From: Leucobacter chromiireducens subsp. solipictus
GTDB lineage: Bacteria > Actinomycetota > Actinomycetes > Actinomycetales > Microbacteriaceae
Assembly: GCF_016758195.1 (NCBI RefSeq)
Contig: NZ_QYAC01000001.1
Span: 1 to 64,000 of the forward strand
Direction of reading: 5' to 3'
DNA: 64,000 nt
Shown here: positions 284 to 14,534 of the stretch, in pieces
How the letters are laid out: each line of letters starts with the position of its first letter
Position numbering within the stretch: the first letter of the stretch is position 1
Notes under the pieces: model-generated
The model's input: the letters and a program-made list of their open reading frames with translations, nothing else
What the model was told of the DNA's origin: nothing
Database searches by the model: none
Position numbers and translations under genes: made by a program

Positions 284-3172
284 ATGGGAGCGATGATGAG
301 CGTGCTCCTTGGCCTCGCACTCGTCGCTCTCCTTGCGCATCCCCTCGTCCGGCGCTTCAGCCGAGACGCATTCTTCGGCTTCGCCGCCGTGCTCGCCGCG
401 GCCTTTGTCGCGCTGCTCGTGATCTCGCTCCCGGTATTCCAGGGCGCAGTCATCGTGGAGTCGCTGCCGTGGGTCCCGCAGCTCGACCTCACGCTCACGC
501 TCCGACTCGACGTCCTCTCGGCGTTGTTTGCGCTCCTCGTGACCGGCGCCGGCGCGCTGGTGCTCCTGTACTGCTCCCGCTACTTTGACGAGGGGGAGGC
601 CGGCCTGCCGCGCTTCGCCGCGGTCTTCATGGGCTTCGCGACCTCCATGCTCGGGCTGGTGCTCGCCGACGACGTCTACCTGCTCTTCATCTTCTGGGAA
701 GCGACGACGATCTTCTCCTTCCTGCTCATCGGTCACGTGACACGACTGCGCACCTCCAACGCTGCGGCGCTGCAGGCGCTGATCGTCACGACGCTGGGCG
801 GCCTGGCCATGCTCGTCGGATTCGTGCTCCTCAGCCACAACGCGGGCTCCTCGCTGCTGTCCGACATCGTCGCGACGCCGATCAGCGGTCCGGTCGCCAC
901 GACGGCGGTGTACCTGGTGCTCGCCGGCGCGCTCTCGAAGTCCGCGATCTTCCCGTTCCACTTCTGGCTGCCCGGCGCGATGGCGGCACCCACGCCCGTG
1001 AGCGCGTACCTGCACGCCGCGGCCATGGTGAAGGCCGGCGTCTACCTGATCGCGCGGATCATGCCCGGCTTCGGGGACGTCGTCGGCGTGCGCGAGACGC
1101 TCGTGATCCTGGGCGCGGTGACGATGCTCAACGGCGGCATCCGCGCGCTCAAGCAGTTCGACATCAAGCTGATCGTTGCACACGGGACGGTGAGCCAGTT
1201 GGGGCTGCTCGTCATGGTCTTCGGGGTGGGGGACCCGCGGGCCTCGTTCGCTGGACTGGTGCTGTTGTTTGCGCACGCCCTCGCGAAGGCCCCGCTGTTC
1301 CTCGCCGTTGGCGTGATCGACCACGCGACCGGCACGCGTGACTTGCGACGGTTGAGCGGTGTCGGGCGAGAGTTCCCGCTGTTGACGGTCATCACGGCGG
1401 TGGCCGCCGCGTCGATGTCCGGGCTGCCGCCATTCCTCGGCTTCGTGGCCAAGGAGGCCGCGTTCACCGAGCTCCTCGAGATTCGCGAAACGTTGCCGAT
1501 CGCCGGCCTCGCCTTCTGGGTCGCCGCGATCGGCAGTGCCTTGACCGTGGCCTACATGGTCCGCTTCCTGTGGGGCGCATTCGCCCGAAAGCCCGGGGTC
1601 GCTGACTGCGGGATCGGCCACCGCCCGCGGTTCGTGTCGCTCGCGGTCCCCGGCGTGTTCGTGGCGCTCACGCTCCTGGGCGGCCTGTTCGCGCCGGCGC
1701 TCGATCCGCTGTTCCAGGCGACGATCACGGGCACCGCGACGCCCGAGCATCTCGCGCTGTGGCACGGCGTCACGGTGGCGCTCGGCGCCTCGATCGCCGT
1801 GATCGTCTCCGGGGTCATCCTCGGTGCGCTGATTTCGCGCCCGAGCTTCACCTTCGCGACGGTTCCAGACCGCTTCTCCGCGTCTCACGCCTACTGGGTG
1901 GTGACGCACCGCGTCGACACGCTCGCGGTGCGCGTGACCTCGCTCACGCAGCGCGGTTCGCTGCCGTTCTATCTTGCGGTGATCCTCATCGTGCTGGTGC
2001 TCGCCGTGGGCGGGACGCTGCTCGCCACGTCGGAGTGGCCCGGCCAGTGGGAGATCGTGAGCTCGCCGGTCCAGATCCCGATCGCGATTGTCATGATCGT
2101 GGCGGCGATCGCCTCGCTGCGGGCGCGGACCCGGTTCCAGTCGGTGGTGCTCGTCGGCCTGACTGGGTACGGCATGGCCGCCATCTTCGCGATGCACGGT
2201 GCGCCGGATCTCGCGCTCACGCAGGCGCTCGTGGAGACGGTCACCATGATCGCGTTCGTGCTCGTGATCCGCCGCCTGCCGCAGCGGATCGGCTCCCCGC
2301 CCTCGAAGCGCGTGCGCTGGGTGCGCGTCCTCATCGGCGTCTCCGTGGGTCTCGTGCTGGGCGCGGTGGCAGTGATCGCGCTCGGATCCCGGATCGCGGA
2401 GCCGATCTCCCTGCAGATTCCCGAGATGGCCTACCTGGGCGGCCACGGCTCGAACGCGGTGAACGTGATGCTCGTGGACATTCGCGGGTGGGACACGATG
2501 GGCGAGCTCTCGGTGATCCTCGCCGCGGCTACCGGCGTCGCCTCGTTGGTGTTCCTGAACACGCGTGCGGACCTCCGCCCGAAGCTGAGCCGTCGCGACG
2601 CGCGCTCGCAAGCTCAGCAGCACCTGCAGCAGGTTGCGGATCCGAATCACCCCGCGAGCCGTGTGTCCTGGCTTCTCGCCGGACGGCAGCTGAACCCGGC
2701 CCGACGCTCGATCATCCTCGAGGTTGTCGTGCGGCTGATCTTCCACGCGCTGATCATCCTCTCCGTGTACTTGCTGCTCACCGGGCACAACACCCCGGGC
2801 GGCGGCTTCGCGGCGGGACTTGTCGCGGGCCTGGCGCTCGTGGCCCGGTACCTCGCCGGCGGTCGGCACGAGCTCGGCGCCACGGTTCCGCTCGATGCGG
2901 GTCGGATCCTCGGGACCGGGCTGGGCCTCGCCGTGACGATGGCGCTGCTGCCGATGTTCTTTGGCCAGGCGGCGCTCGCCTCGGCCTGGGTCGACGTCGA
3001 CCTGGGTCCCTTCGGCACGCTCCCGCTGGTCACGTCCACGCTGTTCGACATCGGCGTGTACCTGGTGGTCTTCGGCCTGATCCTCGACGTGCTGCGCAGC
3101 CTGGGCGCCGAGATCGACGAACACGAGGAGGCCGAGGCAACCGCGTTTGAGGAAGAGGTGAACCGCTCATGA
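284..3172 (+). CDS. mnhA: Na+/H+ antiporter subunit A, fused to subunit B (MrpA-MrpB)
   Basis: Large membrane subunit of an Mrp/Mnh cation/proton antiporter; 962 aa from ATG 284. The open frame continues upstream into the rRNA region, so the start was chosen by the GGAAGCGGG element 7 nt upstream and by the first hydrophobic segment. ATG 293 and 296 are alternatives. The N-terminal ~500 residues form the NuoL-like proton-channel domain. Residues ~620-770 match the MbhD/MbhE-like C-terminal part of MrpA (APDLALTQALVE motif). From ~residue 800 there is a subunit-B domain (TGHNTPGGGFAAGL). The next genes run C-D-E-F-G with no separate mnhB, which fits the fusion. Stop overlaps the mnhC start (ATGA). 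Confidence 0.93.
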   Translation: MGAMMSVLLGLALVALLAHPLVRRFSRDAFFGFAAVLAAAFVALLVISLPVFQGAVIVESLPWVPQLDLTLTLRLDVLSALFALLVTGAGALVLLYCSRYFDEGEAGLPRFAAVFMGFATSMLGLVLADDVYLLFIFWEATTIFSFLLIGHVTRLRTSNAAALQALIVTTLGGLAMLVGFVLLSHNAGSSLLSDIVATPISGPVATTAVYLVLAGALSKSAIFPFHFWLPGAMAAPTPVSAYLHAAAMVKAGVYLIARIMPGFGDVVGVRETLVILGAVTMLNGGIRALKQFDIKLIVAHGTVSQLGLLVMVFGVGDPRASFAGLVLLFAHALAKAPLFLAVGVIDHATGTRDLRRLSGVGREFPLLTVITAVAAASMSGLPPFLGFVAKEAAFTELLEIRETLPIAGLAFWVAAIGSALTVAYMVRFLWGAFARKPGVADCGIGHRPRFVSLAVPGVFVALTLLGGLFAPALDPLFQATITGTATPEHLALWHGVTVALGASIAVIVSGVILGALISRPSFTFATVPDRFSASHAYWVVTHRVDTLAVRVTSLTQRGSLPFYLAVILIVLVLAVGGTLLATSEWPGQWEIVSSPVQIPIAIVMIVAAIASLRARTRFQSVVLVGLTGYGMAAIFAMHGAPDLALTQALVETVTMIAFVLVIRRLPQRIGSPPSKRVRWVRVLIGVSVGLVLGAVAVIALGSRIAEPISLQIPEMAYLGGHGSNAVNVMLVDIRGWDTMGELSVILAAATGVASLVFLNTRADLRPKLSRRDARSQAQQHLQQVADPNHPASRVSWLLAGRQLNPARRSIILEVVVRLIFHALIILSVYLLLTGHNTPGGGFAAGLVAGLALVARYLAGGRHELGATVPLDAGRILGTGLGLAVTMALLPMFFGQAALASAWVDVDLGPFGTLPLVTSTLFDIGVYLVVFGLILDVLRSLGAEIDEHEEAEATAFEEEVNRS

Positions 3173-3744
3173 CGATGCCCCTGGTTCTGGTCGCCGTCAT
3201 GGTGGTGCTGTACGCCTGCGGGGTGTACCTGATGCTCGACCGCACGCTGACCCGGCTCTTGCTCGGCTTCCTCCTCGTGGGGAATGCGACAAACCTGCTG
3301 ATTTTCCTCATGTCGGGCTCATTCGGCAACGCCCCGCTGTACGGGGAGAGCTCGGCCGAAGACATGAGCGACCCGTTGCCGCAGGCGTTTGTGCTGACCG
3401 CAATCGTGATCACCTTCGGGGTGAGCGCGTTCCTGCTCGCGCTGATCTATCGCTCGTGGCGCCTGGCCGCGGGCCGCGACGACACGGTCAAGGACGGCGA
3501 TCCGGATCTCGACTTCGCGGATGCCGACGAGCTGAGCTCGGACGAGGTCACGGAGGAAGGCCTCGCCGGGACTCCCGACTACACGGACGACGACGACATC
3601 CCGGACGGGCCCGACGGCACCGAGGTGCCGCTCGGCCCCACCGGCGCGGGGCACGCCGTCGGTGCCGCCGAGGCGAACCCCTCCGGACACTACCGCGTCG
3701 CCGACTTCACCGAGTTGCCCAGCGCAGGGGAGGACCGCCGATGA
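3169..3744 (+). CDS. mnhC: Na+/H+ antiporter subunit C (NuoK-like)
   Basis: Small NuoK-like membrane subunit of the Mrp antiporter, 191 aa. About the first 105 residues carry three hydrophobic segments with the family motif DPLPQAFVLTAIVI. The remaining ~85 residues are an acidic, Asp/Glu-rich cytoplasmic tail, which makes the protein longer than the usual 110-130 aa. ATG overlaps the mnhA stop and the stop overlaps the mnhD ATG, so the three are translationally coupled. Confidence 0.93.
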   Translation: MTMPLVLVAVMVVLYACGVYLMLDRTLTRLLLGFLLVGNATNLLIFLMSGSFGNAPLYGESSAEDMSDPLPQAFVLTAIVITFGVSAFLLALIYRSWRLAAGRDDTVKDGDPDLDFADADELSSDEVTEEGLAGTPDYTDDDDIPDGPDGTEVPLGPTGAGHAVGAAEANPSGHYRVADFTELPSAGEDRR

Positions 3745-5411
3745 TTGCGCTGGTCCCCCTGGTTGTGCTCATCCCGCTCGCGGGCGCCGCGTTGGCGCTC
3801 GCCGTGCCCGGGCACCGGCGGTTGCAGCAGGGAATCACCCTGTGCGCGCTGATCGCGGTGCTGGTGATCAGCGGCGTGCTCATGTGGGCGGTCGATTCCC
3901 AGGGCTTCCTCGTCATGGAGGTGGGCGGGTGGGCCGCGCCGTTCGGGATCGCGCTCGTCGTGGACCGCGTGTCGGCGTTGATGCTCACGGTGTCTTCGAT
4001 CGTGCTCCTCGGCGTGTTCCTGTTCTCGAGCGGGCAGGGCATCGCTGACGGCGACCGCGATACTCCCGTTTCGATTTACTACCCGACCTACCTCGTCCTC
4101 GGAGCGGGCGTCTTCAACGCCTTCATCGCGGGCGACCTGTTCAACCTGTACGTCGGCTTCGAGATTCTCCTCGTGGCGAGCTACGTGCTGATCACCCTCG
4201 GCGGGACCGCGCAGCGGATCCGTGCCGGGGTGACGTATGTGATCGTTTCGCTCGTGTCCTCCGTGTTGTTCCTGGCGGCGATCGGCATGATCTACGGGGC
4301 GACGGGCACCGTGAACATGGCGCAGCTCACGGTCCGGATCGCGGAGTTGCCGAGCGAGGTGCAGCTCATCCTGAACCTGCTGCTCCTGATCGCGTTCGGG
4401 ATCAAGGCGGCCGTGTTCCCATTGTCGTTCTGGCTGCCCGATTCATACCCCACGGCCCCGGCCCCCGTGACCGCGGTGTTCGCGGGCCTGCTGACGAAGG
4501 TCGGCGTGTACGCGATTATCCGCAGCCAGACGATGCTGTTCCCCACCTCCAGCGTCGACACGGTGTTGATGGTGGTCGCGGGCCTCACGCTGATCGTCGG
4601 CATCCTGGGCGCGGTGTCGCAGCTCGACATCAAGCGCTTGCTCTCGTTCACGCTGATCAGCCATATCGGCTACATGATCTTCGGCATCGGCATGGCCAAC
4701 GCCGCCGGATTCGGCGCGACGATCTTCTACATCGCGCACCACATTATTGTGCAGACGACGCTGTTCCTCGCGGTGGGGCTCATGGAGCGCCACGCGGGGA
4801 CGACCTCGCTTTCGGGCCTCGGCGGCATGCTGCGCACCGCTCCGGTGATCGCGGTACTGTTCTTTATCCCGATGCTGAACCTCGGCGGGATCCCGCCGTT
4901 CTCGGGATTCATCGGCAAGCTGGGCCTGTTTACGGTAGCGGCGGACCTCGCGACCCCCGCCGCATACTGGCTCATGGGCATCGGCGCGCTGGTCTCGCTG
5001 CTCACGCTCTACGCGCTCGCCCGCGCGTGGGTGTTTGCGTTCTGGCGGCCCAAGAAGCGCGCCGACGCCGCCGCCGAAACGCGGAGCACGCGGAAGCCGA
5101 GCACCGAAGCCCTGGTCCTGCGCCAGCGGGAGGAAGCGCTGTTCGAACAGCTGCACGACGCCCCCGACGCGGTCCCGCAGCAGGAACAGAAGGAGATCCC
5201 GCGCCTCATGATCGCGGCGACCGCCGGCATGGTGGTCGTGAGCGTCGCACTGACCGTGTTCGCCGGGCCGCTCTACGCGTACGCTGATCGTGCGGGCGAA
5301 AACATGGCCGAGCCCGGACGCCTCGTGAACACGATCCTGGGGGAGACCCCGGGGCAGCTCGGCGGCGGCAGCGGCACGACACGACCGGACGGGGAGGGAA
5401 CTCATGACTGA
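3741..5411 (+). CDS. mnhD: Na+/H+ antiporter subunit D (NuoN/L-like)
   Basis: Second large proton-translocating subunit of the Mrp complex, 556 aa from ATG 3741, which overlaps the mnhC stop; the frame is open further upstream inside mnhC but that part is not protein-like. Typical features: membrane segments throughout, the FKIKAAVFPLSFWLP-like helix (GIKAAVFPLSFWLPDSYPTA region) and LSFTLISHIGYM. A ~60-residue charged cytoplasmic insert lies near residues 435-490 before the last membrane helix. Overlaps mnhE by 8 nt. Confidence 0.93.
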   Translation: MIALVPLVVLIPLAGAALALAVPGHRRLQQGITLCALIAVLVISGVLMWAVDSQGFLVMEVGGWAAPFGIALVVDRVSALMLTVSSIVLLGVFLFSSGQGIADGDRDTPVSIYYPTYLVLGAGVFNAFIAGDLFNLYVGFEILLVASYVLITLGGTAQRIRAGVTYVIVSLVSSVLFLAAIGMIYGATGTVNMAQLTVRIAELPSEVQLILNLLLLIAFGIKAAVFPLSFWLPDSYPTAPAPVTAVFAGLLTKVGVYAIIRSQTMLFPTSSVDTVLMVVAGLTLIVGILGAVSQLDIKRLLSFTLISHIGYMIFGIGMANAAGFGATIFYIAHHIIVQTTLFLAVGLMERHAGTTSLSGLGGMLRTAPVIAVLFFIPMLNLGGIPPFSGFIGKLGLFTVAADLATPAAYWLMGIGALVSLLTLYALARAWVFAFWRPKKRADAAAETRSTRKPSTEALVLRQREEALFEQLHDAPDAVPQQEQKEIPRLMIAATAGMVVVSVALTVFAGPLYAYADRAGENMAEPGRLVNTILGETPGQLGGGSGTTRPDGEGTHD

Positions 5412-5988
5412 ACCCGGGTCTGAGCCGACGGCCACGCCCCCCGCGCCGCGTGCGGGACGCCGGCTCGAGTGGGGCGTGCGACTCCACGAGTTGCCGTTGC
5501 TCGTGGGACTTGTGCTGCTCTGGATGATGCTGTGGCACGAGGTCTCCCTGCTGTCGCTCGTCAGCGGCGTGGTGCTCGCGATCGTCGTGATGCGCGTCTT
5601 CTACCTGCCGCCCGTGGAGCTCGCCGGACGCTTCAACCCCTGGTACGCCCTGCGGTACTTCGCCTACTTCCTGTGGCACCTCGCCCTCGCCTCCTGGCAG
5701 GTCGCGTGGCTCGCGGTCCGGCCGGGGCCGAGCCCACCGACGTCAATCATCGCCGTGCGCCTGGTGACCCGCAACGACTTCATTCTCACGGCGGTGGGAC
5801 TCACGATCTCGCTGATCCCGGGCTCCCTCGTGGCCGAGGTGGACCGTTTCGAATCCACGCTGTACCTCCACGTGCTGAACACGCCCACGCAACGCTCGAT
5901 CACGCAGATGCGCCGCGACGTGCGGCACATCGAGCGCCTGCTGCTGCTTGCGCTCGGATCACGGCAAGAGATTGAGGCACTGGCATGA
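5404..5988 (+). CDS. mnhE: Na+/H+ antiporter subunit E
   Basis: MnhE-family subunit of the Mrp antiporter, 194 aa. It has a basic N-terminal stretch, two or three membrane helices (LPLLVGLVLLWMMLW and following) and the family segment LTISLIPGSLVAEVD around residues 137-151, ahead of a conserved soluble domain. The start overlaps the end of mnhD by 8 nt and the stop overlaps the mnhF ATG, so it belongs to the same operon. Its role is in complex assembly and activity rather than ion conduction (family knowledge). Confidence 0.92.
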   Translation: MTEPGSEPTATPPAPRAGRRLEWGVRLHELPLLVGLVLLWMMLWHEVSLLSLVSGVVLAIVVMRVFYLPPVELAGRFNPWYALRYFAYFLWHLALASWQVAWLAVRPGPSPPTSIIAVRLVTRNDFILTAVGLTISLIPGSLVAEVDRFESTLYLHVLNTPTQRSITQMRRDVRHIERLLLLALGSRQEIEALA

Positions 5989-6299
5989 GCGCGGTGATGG
6001 TGTGGCTGCTGATCGCGGCGGGCGTGGGCCTGACGCTCACGGCGCTCGCGGCGATCGTCCGGATCGTGCGCGGACCCACGATTCTCGACCGGATGATCGC
6101 GTCGGATGTGCTGCTCACGACGCTGATGCTTGCCGTCGGCACCGACATGGTGGTGCGCGGACACACCGATTCCATTCCCCTGATGACCGTGATCGCGGCG
6201 ACCGCGACGTTTGCCACGATCGTGGTGGCGCGGTTCGTGAAGCGCCGCACCGAGCAACCGGTGCGCGAGGCGCCCCCCGAGGAGGCCGGCTATGTCTGA
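5985..6299 (+). CDS. mnhF: Na+/H+ antiporter subunit F
   Basis: MnhF/MrpF-family subunit, 104 aa, with three membrane helices. The family hallmark RIVRGPTILDRMIASD is visible at about residues 25-40. ATG overlaps the mnhE stop (ATGA) and the 3' end overlaps mnhG by 8 nt. The C-terminus is charged and short. Confidence 0.92.
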   Translation: MSAVMVWLLIAAGVGLTLTALAAIVRIVRGPTILDRMIASDVLLTTLMLAVGTDMVVRGHTDSIPLMTVIAATATFATIVVARFVKRRTEQPVREAPPEEAGYV

Positions 6300-6666
6300 T
6301 GTGACACTGTGGGAACAGATCCTCGATCTCGCGGCCGTGATCTGCGTGTTCCTCGCCGCGGTCCTCTCGGTCGCGGCCGGGATCGGGCTGCTGCGGTTCT
6401 CCGACGCGCTGAGCCGCCTCCACGCGGCGACCAAACCGCAGATCTTCGGGCTGTTGCTCATCATCGCTGCCATCGCGCTGGATCAGCGATCGTTCGCCAC
6501 GCTGCTCGCGCTCGTGCCGGTGTTCGTGTTCCAGTCCCTGACGGCGCCGGTCGCGGCGCACATGGTGGGCCGCGCCGCGTATCGTACGCGGCAGCTCGAC
6601 GAGAACTCCCTGGTCGTCGATGAGCTCGGTCCCGCCATCGAGCGCAGCGATACCCTCTACGGGTAA
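6292..6666 (+). CDS. mnhG: Na+/H+ antiporter subunit G
   Basis: MnhG/PhaG-family subunit, 124 aa, last gene of the antiporter operon. Three predicted membrane helices; the motif GLLRFSDALSRLHAATKPQ (about residues 29-47) is diagnostic for subunit G. After it come 71 bases of GC-rich dyads and then a gene on the opposite strand, so the operon ends here. Confidence 0.92.
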   Translation: MSDVTLWEQILDLAAVICVFLAAVLSVAAGIGLLRFSDALSRLHAATKPQIFGLLLIIAAIALDQRSFATLLALVPVFVFQSLTAPVAAHMVGRAAYRTRQLDENSLVVDELGPAIERSDTLYG

Positions 6667-6672
6667 CGCCGC

Positions 6673-6725
6673 GCTCGGGCGGCCGGGCGGCCCGGGAGCC
6701 AGGGCGGCCCGGCTACCCGGGCGGC
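6673..6725. terminator. GC-rich dyads between convergent operons
   Basis: The short gap between mnhG (+) and the helical-repeat gene (-) is full of GGGCGGCC/GGCCGCCC dyads, for example GCCGGGC pairing with GCCCGGC across about 18 bases. There is no T-tract. It probably terminates both converging transcripts; exact pairing is ambiguous because the units repeat. Confidence 0.45.
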
Positions 6726-6737
6726 ACCCCCACCGGA

Positions 6738-8687
6738 CTACAACTCGGCGACGATTTCCGCGGCGCGGTCGTTCTGGCCGGTGGCCCGCAGCACGTCGAT
6801 GAGCTCGCCAGCCGCGAGTGCGCGATCTGCGCGGTTGCGGGCCAGGGTGAAACCCTCGAACGCGGATTCCAGCGCCCACACCGCGTCCGCGGCGGCGCCG
6901 AGCCCGCGGTGCACGCGACCCGCAAGCCAGAACGCGTGTGCGGCATCGCTCACCCGCCCGAGCTGCGCGTACGCCGCCCCGGCGCTCAGCGCCTCCGCGA
7001 CGGCTTCGCGCTGGCGCGCCGCGGACGCCTCGGCGTCGACGCTGGCCTCCGCCGCGAGCGCCCGCGCGAGCGTGTCGCGGAGATGCGCCTGCCGGAGCCG
7101 CCACTCGGCGAGGCGGCGCTCGGCGAGGTCCGCGCTGAGCCCGCCGGTGTCGGGCTCCGGGTCCTCCGCGAGCGCCTGCCGGATCGCCGCGATGAGCCCG
7201 GCAGCGTCGGCCATCCGCACCGCGATCGGGGCCCAGGCCGTCAGCACGGCAACCAGAAGTTCGGACTCGGCGTGGTCGAGCTGGAGGCGCGCGACCGCGG
7301 CCGCGAAGTGGCCGTGCGCGCTGGCGTCTTCCTGATCGAGCACGGCGCACTGCGCGGCCTCCGCGTAGGCGGCCCCGGCGCGCGCGATCCAGCCCTCGGC
7401 TTCCAGCCGCTCGGCGGCGGTCACATACGCCCGGCTCGCGCCGTCGTAGGCGCGATAGGCGGCCAGCTGCTCGGCAGCCGCCCACAGCGCGTCCCCGCTC
7501 GAGGCACCTGCGGCCGAGGCTGATCCCTCGGCGGCCTCGCGGCCCTCGGCCGACTCGACCGGAGGCGTCGGGGTGGCGGGGGTCCCGCTCGGTGCCGCGC
7601 CGGCGGTCTCGGCCTCGCCGGGCAGGGCGACTGAGGTGCGGCTCGCGGCGGCCGCCCGCGCGAGCTTCCTCGCGTACATGTCCGTCCCGTTTCGCGCGTC
7701 GAGCGGGGCCGCGAGCACGCGTGCGCGATCCTGCACCCACCGGTGGAGCTCGCCGACCGTGTGCCACTCGGGCTCGGCGAAGCCCGTCGGCTCCGCGGCC
7801 CGGTCGAGGTTCGCGGACAGCCCGGCGAGCACGCCGAGCAGGAACCGGAGCTGCATGGCGGGGCTCCCGCTGGCCCGCAATGCGCCGGGATAGTCGCTGC
7901 GGAGCACGCGCAGGGCCTGGTCGAGGCGACCGCCGCGGGCGAGCATCTCGAAGCCCTGCCCACGCGCCGCCGGGAAGTCGGTCGTGCCACCGTCATCGCC
8001 GGCGAGGGCGCGTTTGTGGCTGCGCAGCGCGAGCTCGGGGTCCCCGGCCATGAGCGCGGCGAGGCCGAGGCCGTAGTGCGTCCGGGCCGGCTCGAGATTG
8101 CACCGGTCGTCCTGTGTGCGCCCCAGCGCGACCGCCTCGTCGTAGCGTTCGGTGTCCACGAAGAAGTCCACCTGTTGGCCGATCGTGCACGCGCGGCAGT
8201 CCTCATACTCGTCGCGCAGCCCCGTCACCCAGGCGAGGCGTCGCGCTTCGGCGTCGGCCTGACCCGCGTGCCACGCCCAGCGGAAACGGCTCATGCGGAC
8301 TGAGGACAGCCCGTGCCCGGCGAGCTCGAAGCGGCGCTCCATATCGGCGAGGAACGCCTCCGCCTGGGCGGCGCTGATCTGCGGGAACTCGGGGAGGTCG
8401 CCGGCGACCCACTTGAACTCCCAGAACAGGTTCCGTTCGTCTCCCGCATCGAAGAGCTCGGGGCTCTCGTCCCAGAGCCGGAGGGCGCGGGCGAAGACGA
8501 CAAAGGACTTCGCGCCCTCATCCGCGAAGGAGTAGGCCTCCACGAGGTCGAGCAGCGCCTCGGCGAGGAGTTCGCGGGGGCCGTCGCTGTCGATCCGTCG
8601 GGTGACGGCCTCGCTCGCGGCGATCCGGGCGGTGCCGTACGGCATGCGCCGGATCGCGATCAGTTCGCTGCGGTCAGCTGCGCTCAT
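6738..8687 (-). CDS. Large helical-repeat (TPR-like) protein, partner of HSP90 gene
   Basis: 649 aa soluble protein with no signal peptide or membrane segment. It is rich in Ala, Leu, Glu and Arg and reads as successive helix pairs of about 34-40 residues (for example YAQLGRVSDAAHAFWLAGRV near the C-terminus), consistent with tetratricopeptide-like repeats, though the repeats are too diverged to count by eye. A Pro/Ser/Ala/Gly-rich linker near residues 355-390 splits it into two halves. The N-terminal half has a CRAC segment (about residues 158-161). The start overlaps the HSP90 stop (ATGA), so the two are translated together. TPR proteins are classic HSP90 co-factors in eukaryotes; a similar role here is inference. 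Confidence 0.72.
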   Translation of the reverse strand: MSAADRSELIAIRRMPYGTARIAASEAVTRRIDSDGPRELLAEALLDLVEAYSFADEGAKSFVVFARALRLWDESPELFDAGDERNLFWEFKWVAGDLPEFPQISAAQAEAFLADMERRFELAGHGLSSVRMSRFRWAWHAGQADAEARRLAWVTGLRDEYEDCRACTIGQQVDFFVDTERYDEAVALGRTQDDRCNLEPARTHYGLGLAALMAGDPELALRSHKRALAGDDGGTTDFPAARGQGFEMLARGGRLDQALRVLRSDYPGALRASGSPAMQLRFLLGVLAGLSANLDRAAEPTGFAEPEWHTVGELHRWVQDRARVLAAPLDARNGTDMYARKLARAAAASRTSVALPGEAETAGAAPSGTPATPTPPVESAEGREAAEGSASAAGASSGDALWAAAEQLAAYRAYDGASRAYVTAAERLEAEGWIARAGAAYAEAAQCAVLDQEDASAHGHFAAAVARLQLDHAESELLVAVLTAWAPIAVRMADAAGLIAAIRQALAEDPEPDTGGLSADLAERRLAEWRLRQAHLRDTLARALAAEASVDAEASAARQREAVAEALSAGAAYAQLGRVSDAAHAFWLAGRVHRGLGAAADAVWALESAFEGFTLARNRADRALAAGELIDVLRATGQNDRAAEIVAEL

Positions 8688-10528
8688 GCGGGGTTCTCCT
8701 GTGCGGGATGGTCGGGGGCGGTGCGGCCGAGCGCGGTGTCGAGGAGGACGCCGAGCGCGTCCGTGAGGGCGGCGGATTCGTTCGCACGGAGGCCGTCGCC
8801 GGCCAGCATGACGGCGGAGAGATAGAGCGAGCGCAGGCCCGCGTCGAAGACGTCGCCCGCGGGGGCACTGAGCAGTCGTCGCGCCACGGAGGAGTCGTCG
8901 TTGAGGACCAGGGTGCGGCTGCGATGCTCACGATCCTCGGCAAATGCATCGAGCAGGCCGCCCCAGAGATCCGGGCTGGCCGCACGCTCGCGGTCGCGCT
9001 CGCGCCGATGCTCGCCTTCCGCGTCACGGAGCAGGATCGCGGGGACCGTGCTGGGGGAGAAGGTGCGCACGATCACCTCGCAGTCCTCGGCGTCCAGGAG
9101 GGCGCGGGCGCGCTGCACGGCGTCGGCGAGCTGCCATTCGCGGTCCATGCTGAGGATCCCCAACGCGTGGACCAGATCGGCGCTCTGCAGCTCCCGCACG
9201 CGCCAGTCGGGCCGTGCCTCGAGCTGCGACAGCAGGTCCGCGTCATAGACGTACCCCGCATTGAGCACCACGATATCTTGCGCGCGGGCGACCGCGGCGA
9301 CCCGGCGGTACGCCTCCGTGGTGGTGGTGTAGACGACCTCGCCGCGCTCGCGCAGCTCGGCAAGCGTGCGGGGGCCGTCGGTGGTCTCAAACGGCAGGAT
9401 CGCTGCCGCGAGGTCGAGCATCTCGGGGTCGGTGAGCGCGAGGCCGCGGAGGGCCAGGTGATGCGTTGCGATGACCTGGTGCGCGAGCCGGGACCCGCTC
9501 GCGAGCTCCGCGTGTGCCCAGCCGCGCAGCTGCGCCCCGATCGCCTCGCGGACGCCGAGCAGCACCTCGTCGTCGTGGAGCTGCTCTCGCGACGCGGTGG
9601 GGGAGAGCGCCTCGGTGTCGAGCACCGCGCGGACAAAAAACGCCCATTCGGGGAGCACCCGGTCCACGCGCGGCCCGAGCAGCATGCGCTTCGTGTAGAC
9701 GCGGTGCCCGCCACCGCCCGGGGCGACGGCCAGCGGGAGGATGAAGGCCACCCCGCTCACCCCCGCGACCGGCAGCTCCAGGTCGATGTGCCCGAGCGGC
9801 GTGAAGCCGAAGGTCAGCTCGCAGTACTCCGCGAGGGCGCGCGCCCGCGCCTTCGGGGACGCGTGTGCGATCCGCCAGGGCAGCTCGGGCTCGGAGATCC
9901 GCTGCCAGAGCTCCTCCCCGCCCAGTTCCGTGCGCACCGCGATGTCGAAGGGGAGCAGCGAGCCGTAGTCACGGGTCAGCGTCAGAACCGTGTCGTGGGC
10001 AAGCCAGTGGCCGGTGTCGCGCCGCGCGGCGAGCCGCACCGTCGTGCCGATCGGGATCTCGGGAGACTCGGGAAGCTCCGTGACGCGGAATGTGCCGTTC
10101 GCGTGCCCCTCCCACAGAATGGGACGTGCCCCGGGTGTGGCGGATCGCGACGTCACGGCGATCCGATCCGCCACCATGAAGGCGGCGAGCATTCCGATGC
10201 CGAACTGCCCGATGAACTCCGCGCGTCCCGCGCCAAAGTCGGCGTCTCGCTTCGAGGACCGGCCGATGGTGGCGAGCAGCTCCCGCGCCTCCGCGGCGGT
10301 GAGCCCCACACCCGTGTCGGTGACCTCGAGCGTCGGGGTGCCGTCCGCGTCGTGTCCCGGGGTGAGCCGGATCTGATCGGGTGCCTCCGGGTCACGTTCG
10401 CGGCGGGCGGTCACCGCGTCGATGGCGTTTTGGATGAGCTCGCGGATATACACCTGCGGGCCCGAGTAGAGATGGCGGGAGAGCAGGTCGACCATCCCGG
10501 TGAGGTCGACCTGGAAACGTTCAGTCAC
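8684..10528 (-). CDS. HSP90-family ATPase (HtpG-like)
   Basis: Cytoplasmic HSP90-type chaperone, 614 aa, GTG start. All GHKL nucleotide-site motifs are present: E30 and N34 in RELIQNAIDA, D71-T-G-V-G75, G107-QFGIG-112 and G161-T162. The middle-domain SRE motif (R314 in PTASREQL) corresponds to the catalytic arginine loop of HtpG. The C-terminal dimerisation part is shorter and diverged, and there is no MEEVD-type tail. It resembles the actinobacterial 'HSP90 family protein' group rather than canonical HtpG. It lies between ybjN-like (10 nt upstream) and the helical-repeat gene (4-nt overlap) in one minus-strand operon. Confidence 0.88.
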   Translation of the reverse strand: MTERFQVDLTGMVDLLSRHLYSGPQVYIRELIQNAIDAVTARRERDPEAPDQIRLTPGHDADGTPTLEVTDTGVGLTAAEARELLATIGRSSKRDADFGAGRAEFIGQFGIGMLAAFMVADRIAVTSRSATPGARPILWEGHANGTFRVTELPESPEIPIGTTVRLAARRDTGHWLAHDTVLTLTRDYGSLLPFDIAVRTELGGEELWQRISEPELPWRIAHASPKARARALAEYCELTFGFTPLGHIDLELPVAGVSGVAFILPLAVAPGGGGHRVYTKRMLLGPRVDRVLPEWAFFVRAVLDTEALSPTASREQLHDDEVLLGVREAIGAQLRGWAHAELASGSRLAHQVIATHHLALRGLALTDPEMLDLAAAILPFETTDGPRTLAELRERGEVVYTTTTEAYRRVAAVARAQDIVVLNAGYVYDADLLSQLEARPDWRVRELQSADLVHALGILSMDREWQLADAVQRARALLDAEDCEVIVRTFSPSTVPAILLRDAEGEHRRERDRERAASPDLWGGLLDAFAEDREHRSRTLVLNDDSSVARRLLSAPAGDVFDAGLRSLYLSAVMLAGDGLRANESAALTDALGVLLDTALGRTAPDHPAQENPA

Positions 10529-10538
10529 AGTGTCCAGA

Positions 10539-11027
10539 TTATTCGGCGGGCTTTGCCTGTGCCCACGCTTCGGGGAATGCCTCGTTCAGCTGCTCGTAGA
10601 AGGACATGCCGGTGTTGATCGCGCAGATCAGCTGCTGCGAGAGCTGGCCGTCCGTGATGCCCTGCTCGTAGTCCACATTGTGTTCCGTGTGAATGCGGAC
10701 CATGCCCTCGTCGTCGCGGCGGGCGTACGTCTTGGGCCACAGCTTTTCGGCATTCCAGGTGTTGCAGAACTCCACGGCCTGCAGGAAATCCGTGCCCGGG
10801 AGCTGTCCGCGCCAGCTCCCGCGAATGCAGAGCAGCTCGTTCTCTTCACCGTTGGTGAAGAAGAAGAACGAGCCGTACTCCCATCCACCGCCGATGTCCC
10901 CGTCGGAGTCGACGCTGTACGACCAGCCCTCGCGCTCCAGTCCAGCCTTGATGCGCTCCTTCGAGAGCGGCGCGAGTCCGTCCGCACCGCCGGCCGTCGG
11001 CGCGCTGTCTTTCGTGAAGAATCCCAT
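10539..11027 (-). CDS. YbjN-domain protein
   Basis: 162 aa soluble protein, first gene of the HSP90 operon. The segment after residue 30 (LEREGWSYSVDSDGDIGG, then an LLCIRGSWRG strand and a FCNTWNAEKLWPKTYAR helix) fits the YbjN/sensory-transduction-regulator family, whose fold resembles type III secretion chaperones. ATG 11027 is preceded by a GAGAGGA element about 10 nt upstream. Biochemical function is unknown. Its place beside an HSP90 ATPase suggests a role in protein quality control (inference). Confidence 0.78.
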   Translation of the reverse strand: MGFFTKDSAPTAGGADGLAPLSKERIKAGLEREGWSYSVDSDGDIGGGWEYGSFFFFTNGEENELLCIRGSWRGQLPGTDFLQAVEFCNTWNAEKLWPKTYARRDDEGMVRIHTEHNVDYEQGITDGQLSQQLICAINTGMSFYEQLNEAFPEAWAQAKPAE

Positions 11028-11153
11028 GTGACCCGTGTCCTCTCAATTGGCAAGTCTCCACAGCAGAATGCCACACGGAGGCCGCGTGCGCCCACCGCTC
11101 CGCGCGCTTCCGCAGGAAACTCCGCGACACTCCGGGGAGAACCGCGGGAACGC

Positions 11154-11196
11154 GTGTGTGCGGTGGCGGCCCGGAGCGGGCGGCCACCGCACACAC
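11154..11196 (-). terminator. Hairpin after malate synthase gene
   Basis: A perfect 14-bp stem: GTGTGTGCGGTGGC pairs with GCCACCGCACACAC around a GC-rich loop. It begins 8 nt beyond the aceB stop and lies between aceB and the start of the YbjN-HSP90 operon, so it separates the two minus-strand units. No clear T-tract follows. Confidence 0.75.
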
Positions 11197-11203
11197 GGGG
11201 GAC

Positions 11204-12859
11204 TCAGGCGTCGACGAGGTAGCGGCTGTAGGCGGGCACCGTGAGGAAGGTGGGGAAGTCGTCCCCGAGCGCGACGTCGGTGAAGAGCTCCGCGGCATCG
11301 TCGTAGCGATCCCCGTCGAAGCGCTCGAAGCCGGCCACGGCCTCGCGGAGCAGCTCCGCGACCCACTGGCGCGTGATGCGCGTGCCCTCGGCGGTGGACT
11401 GATCCTGGTGGATCCACTGCCAGATCTGCGAGCGGCTGATCTCCGCGGTCGCGGCATCCTCCATCAGGTTGTCGATGGCGACCGCGCCGTTGCCGCGCAG
11501 CCACGCCTCGATGTACCGCAGCCCGATCGAGACGTTGTCGCGCACGCCAGCCTCGGTGATGTCGCGGCCGATGTGGACGTCGAGCAGCTGAGCGGCGGTG
11601 ACCTCCACGTCATCGCGCTGACGCGCCACCTGGTTCGGTCGCTCCCCGAGTACGGCGTCGAACTCGGCCTGCGCCACCGGGATCAAATCCGGGTGCGCCA
11701 CCCAGGTGCCGTCGAAGCCGTCGCCGGCCTCGCGCTGCTTGTCGGCGCGCACCTTCTCCTCGGCCCGCGCGGTGACCTCGGCATCGCGACGATTCGGGAT
11801 GAACGCGCTCATGCCGCCGATGGCGTGCGCCCCGCGCTTGTGGCAGGTCTTAACGAGCAGCTCGGTGTAGGCGCGCATGAACGGAACCGTCATCGTGACC
11901 TCGCTGCGATCCGGCAGCACGAAGCGGGCGCCGCGACCGCGGTAGTTCTTGATGATCGAGAAGATGTAGTCCCAGCGGCCCGCGTTGAGCCCCGCGATGT
12001 GGTCCCGCATCACATACAGGATCTCTTCCATCTCGAACGCGGCCGGCAGCGTCTCGATGAGCACCGTTGCGCGGATCGTGCCGTGGGGGAGCCCCAGCTC
12101 CTGCTCGGTGAACGTGAAAATGTCGTCCCAGAGCTTCGCCTCTTCGCTCGATTCGAGCTTCGCGATGTAGAAGTAGGGGCCGCGGCCGCGGGCGACGAGC
12201 TCGCGCGCGTTGTGGAAGGCGTAGAGACCGAAATCGACGAGGCTGCCCGAGGCGGCCCCGGCCTGACCCTGTGCGTCGACGAAACGCATGTGCTTCTCCA
12301 CGAGGTGCCAGCCCCGGGGCCGCATCACGATCGTCGGAGTCTGCGCCGCGGTGACGCGGTATTCCTTGCCCTCCGGGCTCGTGTACTCGAGCTGTTCCCG
12401 GATCGCATCGAACAGCGACAGCTGTCCGCCGATCACGTTGTGCCAGGTCGGGCTCGTGGCGTCCTCCTGATCGGCGAGCCACACGCGCGCCCCCGAGTTC
12501 ATGGCGTTGATCGTCATCTTCGGGTCGGTGGGTCCGGTGATTTCCACGCGGCGGTCCTCCAGTCCGGGACCGGCACCCGCGACCTGCCAGCTCGCGTCCT
12601 CGCGAATCTGGCGGGTGTCCTCGCGGAACTTCGGATCGCGGCCGTTTCCGATCTCGTAGCGGCGACGCTGCCGGTCCGCGAGGCGCTCGTGGCGCGTGCT
12701 CGCGAAACGGTGGTGCAGCTCGGTGAGGAAGGCGAGCGCCTCGGCGGTGAGGATCTCCTCGCTCCGGGAGAACGGGCGGCCGGTGACCTCGATGCGGGGG
12801 CCGAAGAACTGGGGGGTGGCGGTCTGCGACTGCTGCGGGGCCGCCTGCGTGGTGGTCAT
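11204..12859 (-). CDS. aceB: Malate synthase A
   Basis: Glyoxylate-shunt enzyme that condenses glyoxylate with acetyl-CoA to malate; 551 aa, usual length for malate synthase A. The signature GLNAGRWDYIFSIIK lies near residues 279-293, and further typical blocks are DQEDATSPTW and ATVLIETLPAAFEMEEIL. ATG 12859 has a strong AAAGGA site 6-7 nt upstream; the open frame upstream of it is not protein-like. It is divergent from the ramB-type gene, whose Corynebacterium homologue controls aceA/aceB. No isocitrate lyase gene is in the window. Confidence 0.95.
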   Translation of the reverse strand: MTTTQAAPQQSQTATPQFFGPRIEVTGRPFSRSEEILTAEALAFLTELHHRFASTRHERLADRQRRRYEIGNGRDPKFREDTRQIREDASWQVAGAGPGLEDRRVEITGPTDPKMTINAMNSGARVWLADQEDATSPTWHNVIGGQLSLFDAIREQLEYTSPEGKEYRVTAAQTPTIVMRPRGWHLVEKHMRFVDAQGQAGAASGSLVDFGLYAFHNARELVARGRGPYFYIAKLESSEEAKLWDDIFTFTEQELGLPHGTIRATVLIETLPAAFEMEEILYVMRDHIAGLNAGRWDYIFSIIKNYRGRGARFVLPDRSEVTMTVPFMRAYTELLVKTCHKRGAHAIGGMSAFIPNRRDAEVTARAEEKVRADKQREAGDGFDGTWVAHPDLIPVAQAEFDAVLGERPNQVARQRDDVEVTAAQLLDVHIGRDITEAGVRDNVSIGLRYIEAWLRGNGAVAIDNLMEDAATAEISRSQIWQWIHQDQSTAEGTRITRQWVAELLREAVAGFERFDGDRYDDAAELFTDVALGDDFPTFLTVPAYSRYLVDA

Positions 12860-13031: not shown

Positions 13032-14534
13032 ATGACACTCCTCGCCCCCGGCACCGCATCCGGAACCGGCTCGTCCCGCCCCGCCGATGCCGAACCCGAA
13101 GACGGCGGCGACGCGCTCACCCTCGGGCGTCGCGTGCGCGAGCAGCGGATGCACCGCGGCCTCACGCTCGAACAGCTCGCCGCCGCGGTTGACCGCGCGC
13201 CCTCGCAGCTCTCCGCCATCGAAAACGGCAAGCGCGAACCCCGCCTGCCACTGCTGCGCGCGCTTGCCGCCGCGCTCCAGGTCAGTGTCGATGACCTGCT
13301 GCTCGACGAGGCACCGAGCGAGCGTGCCGCGCTCGAGATCGCGGTGGAGCGCGCGCAGCGCGGCACCGTGTTCGGCTCGCTCGGGATCCAGCCGATCCGG
13401 GTCTCGAAGGCGACGAGCGATGACACGCTGAAGGCGATCCTCGGGCTACATCAGGAGGTCGAGCGCCTGCATCGGGAGCGGGCAGCGACCCCGGAGGAGG
13501 CCCGGCGGGCCAACACGGAGCTGCGTGGCGAGATGCGCGTGGCGGGGAACTACTATCCGGAGCTCGAGCGCTCCGCCGCCCAGCTCCTCGATAGCGTGGG
13601 CTACACGGGCGGCCCGGTCTCGCAGCAGACGATCGCGAGCGTCGCGGAGAAGCTGGGATTCAGCCTGCACTATGTCTCGAACATGCCGCACTCGACGCGT
13701 TCGGTGATCGACCGCCGCAACGGCCGCATCTATCTCGGGACGAACCTCCCCTCGCGCGACGCCCGGGCCCCGATCCTGCGGGCCCTTGCGAGCCTCGTGT
13801 GCGGCCACGAAGAGCCGCGCAACTACGCCGACTTCCTCCGCCAGCGGGTCGAGGCGAACTACCTTGCCGGTGCGGTGCTGCTGCCCGAGGCCGCCGCCGT
13901 GGAGCACCTCGCGGAGGCCAAGAAGCAACGCCAGATCTCGATGGAGGATCTGCGCGACGCGTTCGGGGTGTCATACGAGATGGCGGCGCACCGATTCACG
14001 AACCTCGCGACGGAGCGGCTCGGGCTCCAGGTGCACTTCATGAAGGCGCACGAGTCGGGCACGCTGATTAAGGCCTATGAGAACGACGGGGTGCGCTTCC
14101 CCTCCGACGCCCTGGGGAACTTCGAAGGGGCGATGGTGTGCCGCAACTGGACCGCGCGCACGATCTTCGCGCAGTCCGACCGCTTCAACCCCTGGTACCA
14201 GTACACCGATATGTCCGCCGGGGGCACGTACTGGTGCACTTCGCGCGTGGAGAAGGCGAAGGAGGGCCTGTACTCCGTGAGCGTTGGCGTGCGCTTTGAC
14301 GACGTGAAGTGGTTCCGCGGTCGCGAAACCACTCACCGCTCGCGGTCGTTCTGCCCGGACGACCGGTGCTGCCGCCAGGCGTCGAGCGAGCTCACCACGA
14401 AGTGGGCGGCGGCTGCCTGGCCGGAGGCGGCGACCCCCACGAGCCTGCTCGCTGCGCTTCCCACGGGAACCTTCCCCGGGGTCGACAACAACGAGGTCTA
14501 CGCCTTCCTCGAGCAGAACGAGCGACGCGCCTGA
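13032..14534 (+). CDS. ramB: RamB-type XRE/IrrE-like transcriptional regulator
   Basis: 500 aa regulator of acetate/short-chain fatty-acyl metabolism. An XRE-type helix-turn-helix occupies about residues 34-90 (GRRVREQRMHRGLTLEQLAA, then PSQLSAIENGKREP). The middle has an IrrE/ImmA-like region (LRALASLVCGHEEPRNYADF, EANYLAGAVLLP) that lacks the metalloprotease HExxH. The C-terminal ~130 residues are Cys- and Trp-containing (FCPDDRCCRQASS). This architecture matches Corynebacterium and Mycobacterium RamB. It is divergent from aceB, the classic RamB target. No Shine-Dalgarno sequence is visible, in line with a leaderless transcript. Confidence 0.87.
   Translation: MTLLAPGTASGTGSSRPADAEPEDGGDALTLGRRVREQRMHRGLTLEQLAAAVDRAPSQLSAIENGKREPRLPLLRALAAALQVSVDDLLLDEAPSERAALEIAVERAQRGTVFGSLGIQPIRVSKATSDDTLKAILGLHQEVERLHRERAATPEEARRANTELRGEMRVAGNYYPELERSAAQLLDSVGYTGGPVSQQTIASVAEKLGFSLHYVSNMPHSTRSVIDRRNGRIYLGTNLPSRDARAPILRALASLVCGHEEPRNYADFLRQRVEANYLAGAVLLPEAAAVEHLAEAKKQRQISMEDLRDAFGVSYEMAAHRFTNLATERLGLQVHFMKAHESGTLIKAYENDGVRFPSDALGNFEGAMVCRNWTARTIFAQSDRFNPWYQYTDMSAGGTYWCTSRVEKAKEGLYSVSVGVRFDDVKWFRGRETTHRSRSFCPDDRCCRQASSELTTKWAAAAWPEAATPTSLLAALPTGTFPGVDNNEVYAFLEQNERRA

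Follow-up and report, generated by a model that had tools for sequence, protein, structure and literature searches.

An HSP90 family gene and a gene for a predicted alpha-solenoid protein form a conserved pair in Actinomycetota and Bacillota, with YbjN as an additional component in one clade

We analyzed a 64,000-nucleotide (nt) stretch of Leucobacter chromiireducens subsp. solipictus (contig NZ_QYAC01000001.1, positions 1 to 64,000; hereafter the window), which carries a minus-strand operon encoding a YbjN-domain protein, an HSP90 family protein, and a helical-repeat protein (hereafter the partner). The HSP90 and partner genes were found to be a conserved pair that occurs in two phyla. This pair is the core of the system, and YbjN is a lineage-specific third part. 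On balance, the operon probably encodes a dedicated Hsp90 machine in which the solenoid is an obligate partner and YbjN is a client-handling module. Its main features, with the AlphaFold2 confidence scores for local accuracy (predicted local distance difference test, pLDDT) and overall topology (predicted template modelling score, pTM), are as follows.

10539..11027, minus strand: YbjN-domain protein of 162 amino acids (aa), N-terminus MGFFTK (PF10722, 85.5 bits against a cut-off of 22; model pLDDT 92.7; PDB 6vu7 and 5fr7; alignment A6)
8684..10528, minus strand: HSP90 family protein of 614 aa, GTG start (NF010683; profile comparison with HtpG 2iop)
6738..8687, minus strand: helical-repeat partner protein of 649 aa, two predicted alpha-solenoids (AlphaFold2 mean pLDDT 91.3, pTM 0.85; PDB matches like tetratricopeptide repeats, TPR)
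8684..8687, minus strand: stop/start overlap ATGA of the HSP90 and partner genes, 4 nt (sequence AGGAGAACCCCGCATGAGC)

The positions and lengths of the three open reading frames, the 10-nt gap between the YbjN and HSP90 genes, and the 4-nt overlap were all as given in the original prediction, which had been made from the sequence of the window. An AGGAG stands 5′ of the partner-gene ATG at the ATGA overlap, and we infer translational coupling of the HSP90 and partner genes. In the genome of the window, NF010683, the partner domain, and PF10722 each match once at E 0.001, and all three matches lie in this operon.

The HSP90 is a full-length member of NF010683 (PRK14083, "HSP90 family protein"), with a score of 673.6 bits (cut-off 455) over model positions 5-599 of 604; this model names the HSP90 only and not its partner. 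It is the same three-region protein as HtpG, given that the family profile matches Escherichia coli HtpG (2iop) at positions 7-589 of 617 and spans all three HSP90 regions. However, it scored 151.4 bits against the HtpG equivalog model NF003555, below the cut-off of 371, and a starred branch separates it from seven canonical actinobacterial HtpG rows in the HSP90 tree. This tree, made by a quick method that flagged long branches, has 83 rows and omits L117 and most Streptomyces loci. Residues E30, N34, D71, G73, G75, K93, G107, G110, G112, R314, and E315 are invariant among the 26 rows of alignment A5. We take these residues to be the GHKL ATP site and the middle-domain (SRE) arginine, both of which the original prediction had described as present; judged by these residues, the ATP site appears intact and ATPase activity is predicted. 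Two HtpG copies of different groups, one of 615 aa, are reported from Streptomyces coelicolor in a passage of Chen et al. (2006; PMC1525184), and our guess is that the 615-aa copy belongs to the present family.

The linkage between HSP90 and partner was followed in several samples of Actinomycetota. The first set of loci comprised 29 neighbourhoods and 80 further loci; the latter were the best 80 by similarity, include many Streptomyces, and hence are not independent. With the window included, searches with profiles derived from these loci place the start of a same-strand partner N-terminal domain at -60 to +250 nt downstream of the HSP90 stop in 105 of the 110 loci. Among the other five, the partner lies directly upstream of HSP90 in L083 and L084, such that adjacency persists though gene order changes, while L111 is at a contig end and L117 has broken genes. 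A less biased count was made with NF010683 matches over the cut-off in 393 Actinomycetes genomes, among which the HSP90 family is present in 52, the partner domain in 57, and both in 51 (Fisher p 4e-56, uncorrected for relatedness). These 52 genomes contain 60 HSP90 copies, and 59 of them have a partner directly downstream on the same strand; the match ends are less than 80 nt apart in 56 of these 59 pairs, and the widest spacing is 389. A phylum-wide draw of 296 genomes gave 12 with HSP90, 13 with partner, and 11 with both, but is not independent, as its 12 HSP90 genomes are all within the 393-genome draw. Within the family to which the window belongs, HSP90 is present in 17 of 150 genomes (18 copies), and a partner adjoins all 18, upstream in two. 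Furthermore, the distance matrices of HSP90 and partner are correlated over 67 loci (r 0.90, with species relatedness retained), while the largest value among 1000 permutations was 0.21.

The HSP90-partner pairing is no chance neighbourhood. The gene-neighbourhood search had been set beforehand as a test of the original prediction, and the genes do not rarely co-occur: among the genomes sampled, the HSP90-helical pair is near-universal for this HSP90 family, and it crosses phyla. Gene order alone would be compatible with three unrelated genes that share a promoter. Such ordinary co-location is hardly credible, being untenable for the HSP90-solenoid pair in view of the 59 of 60 copies, the two phyla, and the order swap, and YbjN likewise occurs in three arrangements, including a fusion.

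Two of the atypical loci merit description. L069 (8878-11654) has the sole HSP90 without the partner domain, and a different TPR protein directly follows it; HSP90 and TPR proteins may thus have become coupled on more than one occasion. In Leucobacter coleopterorum (L117:6463-10755), the operon is broken, with a short HSP90 frame and a split partner frame, which suggests that loss is under way.

The pair is also found in Bacillota. In Paenibacillus cellulosilyticus, the HSP90 gene and a 353-aa gene share a 4-nt overlap, and the latter codes for nothing beyond the partner domain (195 bits). Listeria has two partner genes in a row after HSP90, which encode 324 aa (196 bits) and 320 aa (185 bits), and here too the N-terminal domain makes up the entire partner; the annotation of these genes reads "HSP90 family protein" and then two "hypothetical proteins." A Listeria-like arrangement was observed in one Microbacteriaceae locus (L072:3012-8867), where two tandem partner genes (5976-8867 and 3012-5843, minus strand) come after HSP90. 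By family model score alone, NF010683 was also over its cut-off in the control genomes of Deinobacterium and Corynebacterium glutamicum. In a plasmid collection, seven records have HSP90 at 80% length or more and seven have the partner; six are shared, with the genes adjacent, and the exceptions are Pseudanabaena for HSP90 and Actinomyces oris for the partner. HSP90 and partner are also present in MT837560, which is labelled Bacteriophage sp.; this label is unverified, and the record looks bacterial.

The features of the partner are as follows.

7638..8687, minus strand: partner N-terminal domain, about residues 1-350, common to other HSP90 partners (homologue comparison)
8187..8198, minus strand: partner CxxC motif, C164 and C167 (homologue alignment, pattern search)
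8100..8102, minus strand: third conserved cysteine of the partner, C196, followed by P200 (67 of 67 homologues)
7509..7610, minus strand: predicted disordered linker of the partner, residues 360-393 (pLDDT <50)
6744..7496, minus strand: partner C-terminal solenoid, residues 398-648, the variable part (predicted structure, homologue comparison)

Nothing in Pfam reached its cut-off against the window partner, for which the best match was TPR_1 (18.0 against 27.8), and none of five partners scanned matches any NCBIfam model. Among 16 partners scanned against Pfam, two (L075 and the first Listeria partner) pass the cut-offs of generic TPR repeats and two (L081 and L183) carry YbjN. Neither Pfam nor NCBIfam offers a family model specific to the partner domain. 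In line with the helical-repeat protein of the original prediction, the AlphaFold2 model (32 aligned rows) has helices throughout and is predicted to form two solenoids linked by the disordered stretch. Its PDB matches are generic TPR solenoids (LGN, Ctr9, and APC/C) at template modelling (TM) scores of 0.46 or less, and a search by sequence for a solved relative of the domain gave nothing significant, with one match at E 0.075. The N-terminal domain is the most conserved part and is common to the partners of this HSP90 family, whereas the C-terminal part is variable; in L081, a YbjN domain occupies its place.

A cysteine signature is located in the conserved domain. C164, C196, P200, R332, and W93 are invariant across 67 homologues and C167 is present in 98.5% of them (a count made without L083-L085, L099, L103, and L117). 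By a looser pattern search, CxxC...C...P was found in 114 of 121 partner domain copies; L116, L182, and L211 have an altered form of it, the divergent L083-L085 have none, and L099 is truncated. In the predicted structure, C164 and C167 open one helix and C196 is positioned just before the next-but-one helix. Because of this placement, it is plausible that the modelled cysteines form a shared metal or disulphide site.

Eukaryotic Hsp90 pairs with TPR co-chaperones such as Hop and FKBP51/52. The present pair resembles this system in that an HSP90 is combined with a helical-repeat protein, the window partner being TPR-like by predicted fold. Unlike the eukaryotic system, the window HSP90 is without MEEVD, the partner is under the Pfam TPR cut-offs, and the genes overlap in an operon. 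We propose that the HSP90, with its three regions and intact ATP site, would work with one obligate alpha-solenoid protein. This protein most likely would bind the HSP90 dimer and, as a co-chaperone or adaptor, bring or position clients. According to a passage in Press (2013; PMC3708813), no obligate co-chaperone of HtpG or bacterial Hsp90 has been identified. Our results suggest a constant partner for some bacterial Hsp90s. A gene that adjoins an Hsp90 family in almost all genomes sampled, in two phyla, would allow the absence of obligate co-chaperones for bacterial Hsp90 to be tested directly and at low cost. If correct, the proposal would also give a function to a conserved partner domain that lacks a Pfam or NCBIfam model. 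Each kind of protein (the HSP90 family, YbjN, TPR-like solenoids) is known by itself; among titles and abstract openings in the open-licence literature we found no description of the pair or the trio.

The dedicated helical-repeat co-factor in the original prediction is well supported as a genetic association and putative as a physical partner; the solenoid could instead be a client. Under this alternative, the solenoid, with or without YbjN, would be a client of the HSP90 and not its co-chaperone: it would act as an effector or scaffold that has the HSP90 as a foldase of its own. The alternative expects more solenoids without HSP90 than the reverse, and the partner was indeed found without HSP90 in 6 of 57 genomes while HSP90 was found without the partner in 1 of 52. 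The HSP90-less solenoids keep YbjN or sit in rows that look like other pathways (L207 and L208), which indicates that they have a function of their own, and the free variation of the C-terminal part is effector-like. On the other hand, conservation is highest in the N-terminal domain, as would be expected of a surface in contact with HSP90, and one HSP90 is accompanied by two tandem copies in Listeria and by a bare N-terminal domain in Paenibacillus. HSP90 and partner also evolve in parallel, though clients can do so too. We regard the client alternative as the less likely of the two. As for the two rows mentioned, L207 (3873-8130) and L208 (1722-5976) contain partner-domain proteins without HSP90, next to a cyclic-nucleotide-binding-like protein and another gene (assigned by eye); these are possibly signalling scaffolds.

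The third component, YbjN, has a more restricted distribution. Same-strand YbjN is confined to one starred HSP90 clade of 38 rows, in which 34 rows have it; L082, L113, and L116 are without a linked YbjN, as is L111, where the contig ends. In the other rows of the partner-bearing clade, YbjN was found in 0 of 36 within the stretch fetched. The linked YbjN is upstream in 29 cases, downstream of the partner in four (Propionibacteriaceae), and fused in one (L081, PF10722 49.4 bits). The three-gene operon of the original prediction therefore holds at the window but is too narrow for the system, in which the core is two genes and YbjN belongs to one clade.

The predicted YbjN structure has the topology alpha-beta3-alpha-beta2-alpha, which a passage in PMC3575483 gives for DR1245, YbjN, and type III secretion (T3S) chaperones. 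Its best PDB matches by Foldseek are E. coli YbjN (6vu7_A, TM 0.82) and AmyR (5fr7_B, TM 0.80; both by target length), such that the window protein shares both fold and Pfam family with YbjN, AmyR, and DR1245. Further matches are DR1245 and then T3S chaperones including ExsC, SycN-YscB, and CesT, and the likeness to T3S chaperones noted in the original prediction was thereby recovered. The topology is the same as in the class I T3S chaperones ExsC, CesT, and SycT, although the match is weaker than to YbjN proteins. We claim neither a secretion role nor T3S-chaperone membership for the window YbjN; the operon contains no secretion system or effector, this search being of the operon only and not genome-wide. 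DR1245 binds another protein, DdrB, as stated in part of the same source (PMC3575483), and the portions of the YbjN, AmyR, and DR1245 literature consulted report no HSP90 partner. In our proposal, YbjN would add a second peptide-holding module and, since it is sometimes fused to the solenoid, would act through the solenoid. This would provide a biochemical context for YbjN, a family of unsettled mechanism.

The trio YbjN proteins mostly have the N-terminus M(G/S)(F/Y)F. In the YbjN tree, where this N-terminus served as the label, they do not form one clade relative to the miaA-side YbjN pairs of Cellulomonas and kin (three changes), and the tree thus does not show that the trio YbjN had one origin. 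These tandem YbjN pairs are located near miaA- and dapF-like genes, close to the trio (L097:5219-6138, L114:11823-12763, and kin), and were seen in several Cellulomonas, Cellulosimicrobium, and Sanguibacter genomes. YbjN also occurs with the partner away from HSP90. In three genomes of one genus (g12), a YbjN gene precedes a gene in which the partner domain and YbjN are fused, and HSP90 does not adjoin them (L183:7532-9609, L209:2853-5066, and L210:2939-5019); one of these genomes (G581) also has an HSP90-partner pair elsewhere. In L188, from an Actinomyces oris record of the plasmid collection, the partner is present with two YbjN genes (one under the Pfam cut-off), with no HSP90 in the stretch.

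A wider reading can be formulated, though we lean slightly against it: one entire lineage among the bacterial Hsp90s, seen in Actinomycetota and Bacillota and, by family model, in Deinobacterium, may work as an obligate pair of Hsp90 and a solenoid co-chaperone of its own. YbjN would then be a third, client-holding component in one branch, and CxxC...C would make most partners possible metal or redox switches. If true, this would run counter to the description of bacterial Hsp90 as lacking obligate co-chaperones.

Several observations weigh against the proposed machine of Hsp90 and solenoid. A pure co-chaperone would predict the opposite of the occurrence bias given above. As the original prediction had noted, the HSP90 has no MEEVD; its C-terminus is ...HPAQENPA, and no conserved C-terminal tail was found in the 14 rows of alignment A1. 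The cysteines are not needed for pairing, as their signature is missing or altered in some partners. Across the window, the consensus of the heat-shock operator CIRCE (controlling inverted repeat of chaperone expression) has 0 matches, and that of HAIR (HspR-associated inverted repeat) has a single chance-level match far from the operon. The patchy presence of HSP90 within the family (17 of 150 genomes) also implies that it is no general housekeeping chaperone.

The patchiness extends to the genus. In two congeners (G390 and G309), profile searches found neither the partner domain nor YbjN; the partner search had no positive control of its own in these genomes, and the same query matches in the genome of the window. 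NF010683 has no match in G390 and only a 24.5-bit ATPase-domain match in G309, and the three genes are thus jointly absent from both. In G390, 79 nt separate the Na+/H+ antiporter G gene from the malate synthase gene, which faces it in convergent orientation, and these flanks align with those of the window, which has 4537 nt, including the trio, between the same genes. The corresponding flanking genes of G309 lie at a great distance from each other.

This absence of all three genes from two congeners, together with the patchy distribution, is also what a stress or conflict (defence) cassette would show, if a GHKL ATPase and a TPR-like protein were gained or lost as a block. A divergent HSP90-like gene beside a TIR gene in a Pseudanabaena plasmid points in the same direction. 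However, PADLOC gave only GHKL-domain matches for the HSP90 (best 25.7 bits) and nothing for the other two proteins (neighbouring genes were not scanned), Pfam and NCBIfam scans revealed no nuclease or toxin domain in the trio, and six IMG/VR viral-contig loci with HATPase-like proteins have neither partner nor YbjN. A defence cassette is accordingly very improbable, and a viral origin was rejected on the basis of the same six loci.

Two other loci with HSP90-like genes were recorded. In the Pseudanabaena plasmid (L186:3213-8795), the HSP90-like ATPase gene adjoins the TIR-domain gene on one side, and on the other side are a 232-aa gene and then a TPR gene. In Salmonella Infantis (L190:4977-9124), an HSP90-like gene under the NF010683 cut-off is followed 2 nt later by a gene for a 769-aa helical protein with CxxC. 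This protein was considered as a partner homologue, but the profile comparison was not significant (E 0.018, probability 2.6%), and it was not counted.

The trio is kept together in varying surroundings, as its flanking genes change from genus to genus. A comparison of neighbouring open reading frames of at least 100 aa in a subset of loci (the window, L066-L121, and a few more) identified recurring families, including an ABC-transporter ATPase at 18 loci and a LacI-like regulator at 10 (both named by eye), in varying positions. A conserved fourth neighbour was rejected, as the recurring families are either broad and at varying positions or limited to one genus group. In the window, the operon is flanked by the malate synthase gene (aceB) upstream and the convergent antiporter gene G downstream. 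One further feature was located between malate synthase and YbjN.

11154..11196, minus strand: inverted repeat (located in the sequence), likely the aceB terminator

With such a terminator, the trio would be its own transcription unit. A scan of 6600-11400 for sigma-70-like promoters found one site, at the YbjN/HSP90 junction, and none 5′ of YbjN. On the other side of malate synthase, a divergent gene at 13032-14534 encodes a regulator with helix-turn-helix and IrrE-like parts, which is weakly RamB-like (50.9 bits against 700).

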